This document shows positions 21,966-63,876 of a DNA stretch of 64,000 bases, in pieces. The stretch is from Microbacterium sp. zg-B96 (GTDB lineage: Bacteria > Actinomycetota > Actinomycetes > Actinomycetales > Microbacteriaceae). Each line of letters begins with the position of its first letter. Position 1 is the stretch's first letter. The notes beneath the pieces were generated by a model. The model worked only from the letters and a program-made list of their open reading frames with translations, had not been told where the DNA came from and did no database searches. The stretch covers positions 434,001-498,000 of the forward strand of contig NZ_CP126738.1 in the NCBI RefSeq assembly GCF_030246865.1, given 5' to 3'. The translations under genes and the position numbers were made by a program.

Positions 21966-23554
21966 CCGAGCCCGGCCCGCGGATCCTGCCGTTCGGCGCG
22001 GGCGCGGTGCTGGCCGAAGTGGCAACGCTCGCCGCCGCGCGGGACCTGCATGCCCGGCTGCAGGCGTCGCGCCCGGCGGGCGTGGTCGACCTCGTGCCGG
22101 CGGCGCGCACGGTGCTCGTGCGCCTGGACCCCGCCGTGCTGTCGGTCGCGGCCGCGCGCACCTGGATCGCCCACGCGCCGGATGCCCCTGCCGCGCGGAC
22201 GGACGCCGGCGAGGTCGTGATCCCGATCTCCTACGACGGCCCGGACCTCGCCGAGACGGCGGAGCTGCTCGGCATCACGGCCGAGGAGTTGGTGCGACGC
22301 CACCGCGACGCGGTGTGGACGGTCGCGTTCACCGGCTTCGCGCCCGGGTTCGGGTACCTCGTCAGCGACGACTGGCCGTTCGACGTGCCGCGGCTGGCCG
22401 CCCCGCGCACCAGGGTGCCCGCCGGGAGCGTCGGGCTGGCGGCCGGGTTCACCGGGGCCTACCCGCGAGCCACGCCCGGCGGCTGGCGGCTCATCGGCCG
22501 CACCGACGCCGTGCTGTTCGACCCCGCCGCCGCCTCCCCGGCCCTGCTCGCCCCCGGCATCCGCGTCCGCTTCGTCCCCGCCCCCGTCCCCGCCGCCGCC
22601 CCCGAACCCGTGAGACCACAGCTGATCGCCGAGACGGTGGGAACCACCCAGGGTCTCGGCCACCAGGTGTGGTCTCACGGGGAGGGGGCGGCCGCGGTCG
22701 AAGTCGTCGCGCCGGGGCCCCTGGCGACCGTGCAGGACCTGGGCCGGGCGGGGCACGCGGCGGAGGGCCTCGCGCGGTCGGGGGCGCTCGATCGCGGAGC
22801 GCTGCGCACCGCCAACCGGCTCCTGGGCAACGCCGAGCACGCCGCGGCGATCGAGGTGACGATGGGCGGATGCCTCCTGCGTGCGGCCCGTGACCTCGTC
22901 GCCGTCGTCACCGGCGCGTGGGGCCTGATCACCGTCGATGGGCACGCGGTCGACCCGTATACGGCGTTCTCGTGGCCGGCGGGGGCGACGCTCGAGCTGG
23001 ACCGGTTCGCCCACGGCGTCCGCGCCTACCTCGCCGTGCGGGGCGGGTTCGACGGCCCGTCGGTCGCCGGCTCCCGGGCGACGGACGTGCTCGCCGGGCT
23101 CGGCCCGCCGCCGCTGCGACCCGGCGACGCGCTGCACCGTGCGGGCATGACCGCCGGCGGCATCCCCACGCTCGACCTGCATCCGTGGAGCCCGCCGCCC
23201 GCCGCCGAACTCGAGCTCGACCTGGCGCCCGGTCCGCGGGACGACTGGTTCGCGGCATCCGCCCACGACGCGCTGTTCACCGCCACCTGGATCGTCACCG
23301 GCGACGCCGACCGCGTCGGCGTGCGGCTGGACGGCCCGCCGTTGCCGCAGGTGAAGACAGGCGAGCTGCCCAGCGAAGGCATGGTGCCCGGCGCCCTGCA
23401 GGTGCCGCCGAGCGGGCGTCCCACGATCCTCTGCGCCGACGGCCCGGTCACCGGCGGGTACCCGGTGATCGCGGTGGCGACCGATGCCGCGCTCGATGCC
23501 CTGGCACAGGCCCGCCCCGGCATGCGGGTGCGGTTCCGCCACGCCCGCCGCTGA
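21962..23554 (+). CDS. pxpBC: Fused 5-oxoprolinase subunits B and C
   Basis: A 530-residue fusion. Residues ~1-205 match PxpB/KipI (GPRILPFGAGAVLAEV, then VAFTGFAPGFGYLV and RVPAGSVGLAAGFTGAYPRATPGGW). Residues ~235-530 match PxpC/KipA (VVAPGPLATVQDLGRAGH, GALDRGALRTANRLLGN, ending GGYPVIAVA). Together with PxpA it forms the ATP-dependent 5-oxoprolinase; such fusions are common in actinobacteria. The GTG start overlaps the pxpA stop. The interdomain linker (residues ~216-240) is encoded by a 75-base near-palindrome described separately, so that peptide is probably a tolerated insertion rather than part of either domain. Confidence 0.92.
   Translation: MTEPGPRILPFGAGAVLAEVATLAAARDLHARLQASRPAGVVDLVPAARTVLVRLDPAVLSVAAARTWIAHAPDAPAARTDAGEVVIPISYDGPDLAETAELLGITAEELVRRHRDAVWTVAFTGFAPGFGYLVSDDWPFDVPRLAAPRTRVPAGSVGLAAGFTGAYPRATPGGWRLIGRTDAVLFDPAAASPALLAPGIRVRFVPAPVPAAAPEPVRPQLIAETVGTTQGLGHQVWSHGEGAAAVEVVAPGPLATVQDLGRAGHAAEGLARSGALDRGALRTANRLLGNAEHAAAIEVTMGGCLLRAARDLVAVVTGAWGLITVDGHAVDPYTAFSWPAGATLELDRFAHGVRAYLAVRGGFDGPSVAGSRATDVLAGLGPPPLRPGDALHRAGMTAGGIPTLDLHPWSPPPAAELELDLAPGPRDDWFAASAHDALFTATWIVTGDADRVGVRLDGPPLPQVKTGELPSEGMVPGALQVPPSGRPTILCADGPVTGGYPVIAVATDAALDALAQARPGMRVRFRHARR
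22607..22681. repeat. 75-bp nested palindrome encoding an in-frame 25-codon insert in pxpBC
   Basis: CCCGTGAGACCACA (22607-22620) pairs perfectly with TGTGGTCTCACGGG (22668-22681). Inside, GCCGAGAC (22628-22635) pairs with GTCTCGGC (22653-22660), and GGTGG-GAA-CCACC (22636-22648) forms the tip. The element begins on a codon boundary and is 75 bases long, so it keeps the frame and supplies the linker between the PxpB and PxpC domains. Its TGAGA..CCAC arms recall the elements at 62191 and 63346. Confidence 0.85.
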
Positions 23555-61483: not shown

Positions 61484-62161
61484 GTGGCATCGGCAGGGAA
61501 CAAGACCAACTGGTTCGCGGTATGGGTCAGCGCCGCGGTCGTCGTCGTGCTGGTCGGCGTCGGAGCGCTGGTGTGGTGGATGAACAGTGCCGCCTCGCCC
61601 GAGGCATCCGCCCCCACGGGGTCCTCGATCGAAGCCGAGACCGGCGCGATCGTCGTCGGTGACGGCGCGGACGAGGTCGAGCTGTGGATGGACTTCTACT
61701 GCCCTCACTGCCAGGACTTCGAGGATGCGTACGGATCCACGATCAGCGAGCTCGTGGATTCGAACGCCATCACCCTGCGGGTGCAGCCGGTGGCGCTGGC
61801 CTCGCTCAACGCGGCATCCGGCACCGAGTTCTCGGCCCGCTCGGCCAGCGCGATGTACTGCGTCGCCGAGACCAGCGGGCAGGCGGCGTACGACTTCATG
61901 ACCGCCGTCTTCGCCACGCACCCGACCGGGCAGGGCCTGACCGACGACGAGCTCGCGCAAATCGCGGCGGATGCCGGTGCCCCCGACGCCGCCGAGTGCA
62001 TCGCCGACGAGACGTACGCGGACTTCGTGCTGTCGCAGGCGCAGGAGCTGCCGGAGAGCCCCGAGGGCTCCGCCGGCACCCCGACGCTGCTGGTGAACGG
62101 CGAGTACGTGACGATCACCGGCGATGTGACCGCCGACCTGACGTCCCGCCTGGGGATGTAA
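61484..62161 (+). CDS. Membrane-anchored DsbA-like thioredoxin-fold protein
   Basis: A 225-residue protein with one N-terminal membrane helix (FAVWVSAAVVVVLVGVGALVWW). A thioredoxin-like domain with active site C73-P-H-C76 (MDFYCPHCQDFEDAYG) and a cis-proline in GTPTLLVNGEY follows. It should act outside the membrane as a disulfide oxidase or isomerase. A second cysteine pair (MYCVAE, AECIAD) may be structural. GTG 61484 starts 11 bases after map and may be co-transcribed. Its stop is 30 bases before a palindromic element. Confidence 0.9.
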   Translation: MASAGNKTNWFAVWVSAAVVVVLVGVGALVWWMNSAASPEASAPTGSSIEAETGAIVVGDGADEVELWMDFYCPHCQDFEDAYGSTISELVDSNAITLRVQPVALASLNAASGTEFSARSASAMYCVAETSGQAAYDFMTAVFATHPTGQGLTDDELAQIAADAGAPDAAECIADETYADFVLSQAQELPESPEGSAGTPTLLVNGEYVTITGDVTADLTSRLGM

Positions 62162-62190: not shown

Positions 62191-62257
62191 TGAGAAACCA
62201 CTTCTCGGATGAGACACCACGCACCGCGTGGTTTCTCGACCGAGAGGTGGTTTCTCA
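62191..62257. repeat. 67-bp palindromic element, copy 1
   Basis: TGAGAAACCACTTCTCGG (62191-62208) pairs with 62240-62257 with one mismatch. Inside, GAGACACCACGC (62211-62222) pairs with GCGTGGTTTCTC (62226-62237) with one mismatch around ACC. Each half repeats the word GAGAMACCAC. Its last three bases are the stop codon of the neighbouring minus-strand gene. It aligns base for base with the element at 63346-63412 (about 80% identity). Confidence 0.9.
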
Positions 62258-63223
62258 CTTCGGCAACGACCGCGGGTTGTGTCGCAGCGTCGCCAGCAGG
62301 GCACGCTGCGGGGGCCGCACGCGCGGCACGCCGGCGCGGCCGAGTCGCTCGTCCAACGGGGCGACGCGCATCGCCGTGGCCCAATCCCACCGGGTGAACT
62401 CGCGCACCTGGCGGCGGAGGCGATCTTCCCTCTGCTTCTCGTTCACGATTCGTGCCACGGTGTCCGCGGCATCGGTGCCGACGTACTTGCCGTAACCGTC
62501 TGACTCGCCGATCACGCTCGCGCGACGCCAGAAAAAGTCGGCCCGGTCGACGAAGCCCTCGGCGACGAACTCGACTTGCAGTTCGGGGCCCTCGTACCCG
62601 AGCCAGACGATGACCGCGTGGCTGACTGTCTCGCCCACGGACTCCGACCGCGGATCCACCAGCTCCAGCAGCAGTGCCACGCGGGCGCTGCCACGCCGGT
62701 TCACCTGCGAGCCGGCGATCTCACGCAGCAGGTCGACGGATGCCGCATCGGGCCGGCTCGCCGACACCACGGCATCCGCGACAGCAAGTCCGAACGCCGG
62801 GGGCAGCACCCGCATGAGGTCGACGGCGGTGGCAGCCGGCGCCGTCATCAGCATGCCGCCGCGCAGCTCGACGGGCTTGGCATCGGCGCTGGTGTGTACG
62901 CAGACGTCGCCGAAGCGGCGGGAGCTGGTGCGCTCCGGGTCGTAGACGTGAATGTCGCGGGGCTCCCCGAAGACGGGGAGGCCCATCGCCGCGGCGGCGG
63001 ACTCGAGGGCGAGGATCGCGTCGGGATGCTTGAGGTGAAACGCATGGACCCGCGCTCGATACCGCTCCCACGGTTGGAGCCTGACCCATTGGTCCCGGGG
63101 CGCGTAAACGCCCGGACGCACCCTGATCACGGCCGCGCCCGCGCGGACGCGCAGCCCGGCGTGCGCGGCGTCGCCCTGCAGCGTGAGCATGACGGGGGCG
63201 GGCGCGATCTGCAGCGATTTCAT
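62255..63223 (-). CDS. AbiEi-antitoxin-like / DUF559 nuclease-like protein
   Basis: A 322-residue protein. The N-terminal half resembles AbiEi-type antitoxin-domain proteins (VIRVRPGVYAPRDQW; HPDAILALESAAAAMGLPVFG; TAPAATAVDLMRVL). The C-terminal third resembles Vsr/DUF559 PD-(D/E)XK nucleases: SESVGETVSHAV with E199, RADFFWR with D229, and VIGESDGYGKY with E240, D242 and K246. Such genes occur as many orphan paralogues in Microbacteriaceae; neither antitoxin nor nuclease activity is established, and no toxin partner is nearby. ATG 63223 is the start. It is flanked by two related palindromes, the downstream one providing its stop codon, and it is inserted between the map/dsbA-like genes and infA. 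Confidence 0.8.
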   Translation of the reverse strand: MKSLQIAPAPVMLTLQGDAAHAGLRVRAGAAVIRVRPGVYAPRDQWVRLQPWERYRARVHAFHLKHPDAILALESAAAAMGLPVFGEPRDIHVYDPERTSSRRFGDVCVHTSADAKPVELRGGMLMTAPAATAVDLMRVLPPAFGLAVADAVVSASRPDAASVDLLREIAGSQVNRRGSARVALLLELVDPRSESVGETVSHAVIVWLGYEGPELQVEFVAEGFVDRADFFWRRASVIGESDGYGKYVGTDAADTVARIVNEKQREDRLRRQVREFTRWDWATAMRVAPLDERLGRAGVPRVRPPQRALLATLRHNPRSLPK

Positions 63224-63345
63224 GTCCCCAGCGTGCGCACGCGCGGCATCCGGCGTCGGCGCCCGCATCCCGATCCGGGGACAGCACCGCCCATCCGCGC
63301 CCTGTGGAGGAAGCGCCGCGCGCACGGGCCCGACGTCGACGCCGC

Positions 63346-63412
63346 TGAAAAACCACGTTTCGGATGAGAAACACCGCGATGCATGGTTTCTCGCCCGAGA
63401 AGTGGTTTCTCG
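63346..63412. repeat. 67-bp palindromic element, copy 2
   Basis: Left arm 63346-63363 (TGAAAAACCACGTTTCGG) faces right arm 63395-63412 (CCGAGAAGTGGTTTCTCG) with a few mismatches. The inner pair is GAGAAACACCGC (63366-63377) and GCATGGTTTCTC (63381-63392). It has the same length, orientation and layout as copy 1 and lies 122 bases upstream of the nuclease-like gene's start. Confidence 0.87.
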
Positions 63413-63421
63413 GGGGAGAGG

Positions 63422-63500
63422 GCGGCGCGATAGCCGCGGGGCCCGGGCAGCCGGGGGCGGCGCGATAGCGGCGGGGCCCGGGCAGCCGGGTGCGGCGCGA
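63422..63500. repeat. 35-bp tandem repeat upstream of infA
   Basis: Units at 63422-63456 and 63457-63491 differ at two positions (both begin GCGGCGCGATAGC and contain GGGGCCCGGGCAGCCGGG). A third unit begins at 63492 (GCGGCGCGA) and diverges into the CGACACGCCCGA motif. The sequence is almost pure G+C and lies directly upstream of the infA promoter. Confidence 0.8.
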
Positions 63501-63654: not shown

Positions 63655-63876
63655 ATGGCGAAGAAAGACGGTGTCATCGAGATCGAGGGTGTGATCTCCG
63701 AGGCTCTCCCGAACGCGATGTTCCGCGTCGAGCTGAGCAACGGACACAAAGTGCTCGCAACCATCTCGGGCAAGATGCGGCAGAACTACATCCGCATCAT
63801 CCCCGAGGACCGCGTTGTCGTTGAGCTCAGCCCTTATGACCTCACGCGCGGCCGCATCGTCTACCGCTACCGCTAG
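63655..63876 (+). CDS. infA: Translation initiation factor IF-1
   Basis: IF-1 of 73 residues, full length OB-fold ([25 protein letters not shown]-type segment [33 protein letters not shown] at the end). It binds the 30S A site during initiation. ATG 63655 lies after GCGAGCG, a weak ribosome site. It opens the alpha-operon part of the cluster, followed by rpmJ. Confidence 0.97.

Follow-up and report, generated by a model that had tools for sequence, protein, structure and literature searches.

The window analysed here, a stretch of 64,000 nucleotides from Microbacterium sp. zg-B96 (contig NZ_CP126738.1, positions 434,001 to 498,000), contains a minus-strand gene of 322 codons (322 amino acids, 63223-62258) for a nuclease-like protein, enclosed by two palindromes of 67 bp. 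The unit lies between a DSBA/Thioredoxin_4 gene (dsbA), which follows a Peptidase_M24 gene (map), and the IF-1 gene (infA), all as assigned with Pfam (Table 1). It is close to certain that the gene and its palindrome family are paired, both within the genus and beyond it. The source genome comprises a single contig of 3.41 Mb, in which relatives of both the gene and the palindromes are found.

Table 1. Features of the gene-palindrome unit, its neighbours and a related palindrome in the window (window coordinates unless stated)
Feature	Position	Strand	Remarks
DSBA/Thioredoxin_4 gene	61484-62161		Pfam
Family-1 palindrome, 3' end of the gene	62191-62257	none	contains the stop codon; one of 13 genome copies found
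Gene for AbiEi-like and Vsr-like (PD-(D/E)XK fold) protein	62255-63223	minus	open reading frame, homologs, structure prediction, conserved acids
Family-1 palindrome	63346-63412	none	on the infA side of the gene, 122 bp before its ATG
IF-1 gene (infA)	63655-63876		Pfam
Solitary family-2 palindrome	22612-22676 (genome 456612-456676)	none	family that flanks the paralog at genome positions 1970662-1971591

The two palindromes had been described in an earlier note on this DNA, with correct coordinates and an identity of ~80% (54 of 67 positions agree, 81%), as had the overlap of the 3' element with the gene's TGA stop (62255-62257). The common orientation ascribed to them there is undecided, as direct and inverted comparisons both give 54/67. 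In the 3' element, units at 62192-62201 and 62211-62220 are followed by inverted units at 62228-62237 and 62247-62256, 19 bp apart in each arm; throughout this sequence family (family 1), each arm holds the decamer GAGAAACCAC or a near copy of it twice at that distance. The literal pattern GAGAAACCAC-N-GTGGTTTCTC, which the earlier note had put forward for a genome search, has no match even with up to three mismatches, because spacers separate the units. Folded as RNA, both elements form nested hairpins, with energies of -50.1 kcal/mol at the 3' end of the gene and -30.3 kcal/mol upstream. A strict scan (arms of 30 bp, loop of 1-7, at least 24/30 complementary positions) retained two palindromes in the window, one at 62193-62255 (family 1) and the solitary one of a second family (family 2), and the upstream element, with an arm complementarity of 22/30, falls below this threshold. 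Directly adjoining the upstream palindrome, a GC-rich unit of 35 bp is present as a tandem duplicate (63420-63489, 97% identical).

Structure prediction assigns an AbiEi-like fold to residues 11-190 of the protein and a Vsr-like fold to the C-terminal residues 193-301, backing both regions that the earlier note had recognised; failure of the nuclease motifs in structure prediction had been named there as a finding that would speak against the idea. The nuclease-type acids are kept in 127-129 of 132 homologs. At the level of sequence profiles, 23 of 24 aligned members are hit by one AbiEi profile from a defence library. No member has a Pfam match at E<=0.01 to Vsr or to DUF559, which we take to be a label for the Vsr/I-Bth0305I/NGO0050 nuclease group; in the same 24 members, AbiEi_1 was found in two, and AbiEi_4 and Abhydrolase_8 in one each. 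The window protein itself has a single Pfam match, under its cut-off, and NCBIfam gave none for seven family members. Stop codons interrupt the matched stretch in some homologs (loci L142, L152, L154, L211, L212, L218, L221 and L272), and some genes of the family may thus be decaying.

To follow the pairing within the genus, we used the best 80 of 536 candidate stretches from genomes of named species, 74 of which are from Microbacterium, and considered as beside the gene the 400 bp on its 5' side and the 300 bp on its 3' side. Palindromes with at least 21/30 complementary positions occur there at 2.39 per kb, versus 0.129 per kb in the remainder of these loci, and those with at least 24/30 at 1.02 versus 0.014 per kb, so that the density beside the gene is 18 to 71 times that of the remainder. 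Palindromes were present on both sides in 45 loci, and in 44 of these the two sides were alike (score >=40), whereas pairs drawn from different loci were alike in 214 of 1980 cases (218 when crossed pairs were scored identically). The similarity between elements rises with that between proteins (rho 0.44 over 44 loci; none of 2000 permutations reached this value), a correlation to which common ancestry contributes. The best internal offset of the arm repeat was exactly 19 nt in 41 of the 45 pairs, and since the unit sequences vary by locus, the feature kept in the genus is the 19-nt spacing, as would be expected of a protein reading two sites about two helical turns apart. Palindromes resembling those at the gene were found elsewhere within 10 kb of it in 18 of 133 cases (70 loci).

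The pairing extends well beyond the genus. Homologs at E<=1e-20 are encoded in 87 of 99 genomes of the genus, 106 of 149 of the order and 27 of 149 of the phylum. At the level of the order, 12 of the 24 loci outside the genus (30 loci in all) have a matching pair of palindromes; at that of the phylum, 27 further loci were collected, of which four were too short, and nine of the 23 examined, including the window itself, have one (7 of 20 outside the order). Palindromes are again concentrated beside the gene, with 42 in 30 kb versus 3 in 59 kb elsewhere in the order-level set and 31 in 23 kb versus 2 in 46 kb in the phylum-level set. Beyond the genus, 22 loci have palindromes on both sides of the gene, and the two match in 20 of them, versus none of 462 crossed pairs. 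The earlier note had held that a scatter of palindromes unlinked to the gene family would count against the system; when genes are set against their own palindromes, the outcome is the opposite.

Each genome, moreover, carries its own version of the element. Ten mutually unlike gene-flanking palindromes were joined into a single query and searched (E<=1e-8) against their ten source genomes, which represent nine genera. All 130 matches fell on the genome's own element and none on another, with some extending by a few to 28 bases into the neighbouring element of the joined query. These matches correspond to 98 distinct places, 81 of which are away from the gene, with at least one such place in every genome (for example, 17 of 19 in G229, 24 of 26 in G149, 1 of 2 in G215 and 1 of 3 in G154); for six of the ten genomes, only 40 first-look candidates were scored.

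In the zg-B96 genome, a protein search at E<=0.01 returned four homologs, including the gene itself, and the best paralog, 41% identical, sits between two palindromes of a different sequence, those of family 2. Two paralogs of one genome thus have different palindromes, indicating that the palindrome tracks the gene and not just the genome. Family 1 occupies 13 places, 75-100% identical to the first element by the best strand; a covariance model built from these copies gave 26 matches, the same 13 places on both strands, and all 13 copies fold as one very stable hairpin. Family 2 has at least 25 full-length places and one partial one, 82-97% identical to the query by the best strand, a lower bound given that 40 of 53 candidates were scored. 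In 20 of its 25 copies compared (two of them gene-flanking), a core of ~73 bp extends from CCGT to AGCG, conservation ends sharply at its limits, and two mismatched foot positions set its direction. Only two of the 13 family-1 copies flank the gene and 11 lie far from it, as do 23 of the 25 family-2 copies from the paralog. The earlier proposal of a small mobile or defence cassette is thus borne out only in part: with most copies far from the gene, the arrangement is better described as a repeat dispersed through the genome, with a gene that stays in residence, than as a mobile cassette. The sole hint of a link to defence is the AbiEi profile match in the defence library.

Gene prediction with a simple caller puts 10 of these 20 family-2 copies and 5 of the 13 family-1 copies in gaps between convergent genes; for 16 of the same 20, a stop codon lies within 100 nt. 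Such siting at 3' ends fits tolerated insertions and terminators alike and leaves the function undecided. The left flanks of the family-2 copies (L186-L205) are C-rich and the right flanks G-rich (mean skew -0.43 and +0.38), regardless of gene orientation. Insertion into the loop of a GC hairpin was considered and rejected, because the two flanks of one copy complement each other no better than flanks swapped between copies, so that base composition accounts for the skewed flanks. We sought a clean empty site at one orthologous junction of a solitary family-1 copy and saw none. Against Rfam, five hits came up at E<=5; all were to families of miRNA or snoRNA, lay under the gathering scores and were judged to be due to chance.

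Palindromes resembling family 1 were found in 56 of the 99 genus genomes in a survey with stricter filters and 52 candidates scored per genome. Of the genomes that encode a close homolog (E<=1e-110), 36 of 44 contain at least two such matches, versus 16 of the 55 that encode none (Fisher p 2e-7). Counted on both strands, G076 has 21 and G048 has 36 family-1-like matches, with a close homolog in neither; these are possibly orphan palindrome populations that followed gene loss.

The gene does not occupy a single fixed locus. In 82 context rows (the 80 genus loci, the window and the paralog), we counted 29 distinct immediate-neighbour contexts, with three regions dominant, and the gene keeps to a few chromosomal neighbourhoods in the genus, one of which is map/infA. 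Both junctions of this neighbourhood could be measured in 27 loci. The unit lies between dsbA and infA in seven of them, with a map-dsbA gap of -2 to 23 bp (one exception, 805), and between map and dsbA in the other 20, in either orientation and with a dsbA-infA gap of 138-219 bp, so that either junction may be occupied by the unit in one species and closed in another. The gene therefore resembles a resident with local moves. In genome G040, some palindromes form doublets with 163-429 nt between them (L292-L297). In L292 and L294 (two of six read), flanking DNA is duplicated together with the palindrome, so the doublets look like local tandem duplications, and the duplicated flanks suggest breakage and repair at the palindrome. 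A composite transposon was rejected for these doublets, as the six middles are not homologous beyond short low-complexity stretches.

Taken together with the predicted folds, these observations make it likely that the protein recognises its cognate palindrome. As the best explanation, we further consider it somewhat probable that the protein cuts the palindrome and thereby spreads it, as the counterpart of a REPtron with an unrelated nuclease; the earlier note had likened the unit to pairs of repetitive extragenic palindromic (REP) elements and RAYT enzymes with a different enzyme class, a comparison borne out by the matching pairs in many genera, the own-element-only matches and the AbiEi- and Vsr-like folds. 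In such a cycle, the AbiEi-like N-terminal part would bind the repeated units and the Vsr-like C-terminal part would cut or nick the palindrome, either when it is extruded as a cruciform or when it forms a single-stranded hairpin while the DNA is replicated. The cut product would be repaired or re-inserted, whereby the palindrome would be copied locally and to new intergenic sites, and the gene would mostly stay put, as reported for RAYT genes, with occasional local moves.

Several observations weigh against this interpretation. One or both palindromes are absent from 35 of the 80 genus loci, several owing to contig ends, and matching pairs are lacking in 12 of the 24 order-level loci outside the genus and in 13 of the 20 outside the order. 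In the wider set of pairs, the best arm-repeat offset is 19 nt in only 9 of 20 cases and 20 nt in two. In the source genome, the homologs at 781692-782609 and 3303327-3304301 have no palindromes at >=24/30; these may have been lost, or the genes may serve a different purpose. No family-1-like match was found in seven genomes that carry a close gene, two of which, G006 and G007, have palindromes of another sequence at the gene; conversely, eight genomes without a close gene have at least five matches (G029, G030, G040, G045, G048, G054, G065 and G076), and in G040 and G045 the close genes are split or partial. Target-site duplication was not evident in palindrome flanks read by eye. Finally, common ancestry alone would lead one to expect some of the co-occurrence and co-divergence of gene and palindrome.

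The promoters of AbiEi genes carry inverted repeats to which the encoded proteins bind. The protein studied here could accordingly be a DNA-binding regulator or chromosome organiser, for which the flanking palindromes are operators or anchors and the dispersed copies are other sites, spread by another route. The AbiEi-like fold of residues 11-190 fits this explanation, as do the position of the upstream element, 82-319 bp ahead of the matched stretch in the 45 paired genus loci, and the repetition of units at 19-nt spacing, which resembles that of binding sites. We nevertheless regard it as unlikely, because it leaves unexplained why a matching copy lies 3' of the gene, why the nuclease-type acids are conserved and why whole 65-bp elements of family 2 occur at so many sites, mostly at the 3' ends of genes and not at promoters. 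More doubtful still is a defence or toxin-antitoxin module, in which the nuclease would attack invading DNA and the palindromes would mark or sense something for it. The defence-library profile and the predicted nuclease fold are in its favour; however, no AbiEii nucleotidyltransferase toxin gene adjoins the gene in the window, where its neighbours are the DSBA-like and IF-1 genes, the gene keeps to few neighbourhoods in the genus, and a defence gene would not be expected to come with dispersed palindromes specific to its lineage.

Alternatively, a different transposase might move the palindromic elements in trans, with the gene as their cargo or as a bystander. The unit does lie at different junctions in related species, and the 58 scored flanking pairs comprise 30 direct, 11 inverted and 17 undecided ones. 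This explanation appears very improbable, considering that the palindrome sequence tracks the gene across genera and between the paralogs of one genome; furthermore, Y1 transposase (PF01797) was not found in the source genome in a search restricted to that class, the profile having matched 5 of 14 named genomes, including Escherichia coli, as a positive control. Least credible, and already disfavoured, is that the palindromes are ordinary terminators or 3'-end hairpins that flank the gene by chance, as the proximity of family-2 copies to stop codons and the very stable folds of family 1 would allow, given that neither the excess beside the gene nor one shared 65-bp sequence per genome, differing by genus and matching the gene-flanking pair, is expected of terminators.

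The proposed recognition and spread of the palindrome by the protein would have its closest parallel in the REPtron, outlined in PMC8266576 and PMC6006769 as a mostly resident gene with cognate flanking palindromes that spread genome-wide, with several types per genome and palindromes that outlive the gene. Here, too, a mostly resident chromosomal gene has cognate palindromes on its flanks and further copies of them scattered through the intergenic DNA of the genome. Several types of the gene coexist in a genome, each with its own palindrome, and the palindromes can outlast the gene. The enzyme, however, is AbiEi- and Vsr-like instead of HUH/Y1, and the elements are ~65 bp long with four units, spaced by 19 nt in most genus cases. 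They lack GTAG at the foot in both families of the source genome (GTAG/CTAC occurs within 10 nt of the palindrome end in 0 of 13 family-1 copies and 1 of 20 family-2 copies, not at the foot), and they number 13 and at least 25 copies, compared with hundreds of REPs in E. coli. By its anatomy, the system would work like a REPtron without being one.

Other known systems share only parts of this anatomy. Approximately the first 180 residues are predicted to have the fold of the AbiEi antitoxin of the AbiE type IV toxin-antitoxin system (6y8q), but the present protein additionally carries a nuclease-fold domain and has no adjoining toxin gene in the window. Residues 193-301 resemble the Vsr, I-Bth0305I and NGO0050 nucleases in predicted fold and conserved acids; unlike them, this predicted nuclease is fused to an AbiEi-like domain and has a palindrome family as its partner, and the 24 members compared gave no match to the DUF559 and Vsr models of Pfam at E<=0.01. 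IS200/IS605 elements similarly have palindromes at both ends, yet the gene is not present in many near-identical copies and the source genome gave no match to their Y1 transposase. We found no publication on such a gene-palindrome system in the open literature, most subscription papers being outside the search.

We give roughly even chances to the broader proposition that Actinomycetota harbour widespread, undescribed, self-spreading palindromes of ~65 bp, kept and copied by an AbiEi-Vsr nuclease that reads a double site spaced by 19 bp; this system would have arisen separately from REP/RAYT and be the first driven by an enzyme of the PD-(D/E)XK fold, with enzyme and site co-diverging by species. 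If so, it would account for dispersed palindromes in a large bacterial phylum, at 2 to 26 places per genome in the ten genomes searched, and would provide a second, unrelated system for studying how REP-like repeats spread. As each gene comes together with the sequence that it would recognise, natural enzyme-site pairs are on hand in many genomes; the recognition code can therefore be tested, and new sequence- or structure-specific nucleases could result. Some of the actinobacterial AbiEi-like 'orphan antitoxins' would, by the same token, gain a candidate role beyond toxin-antitoxin systems.
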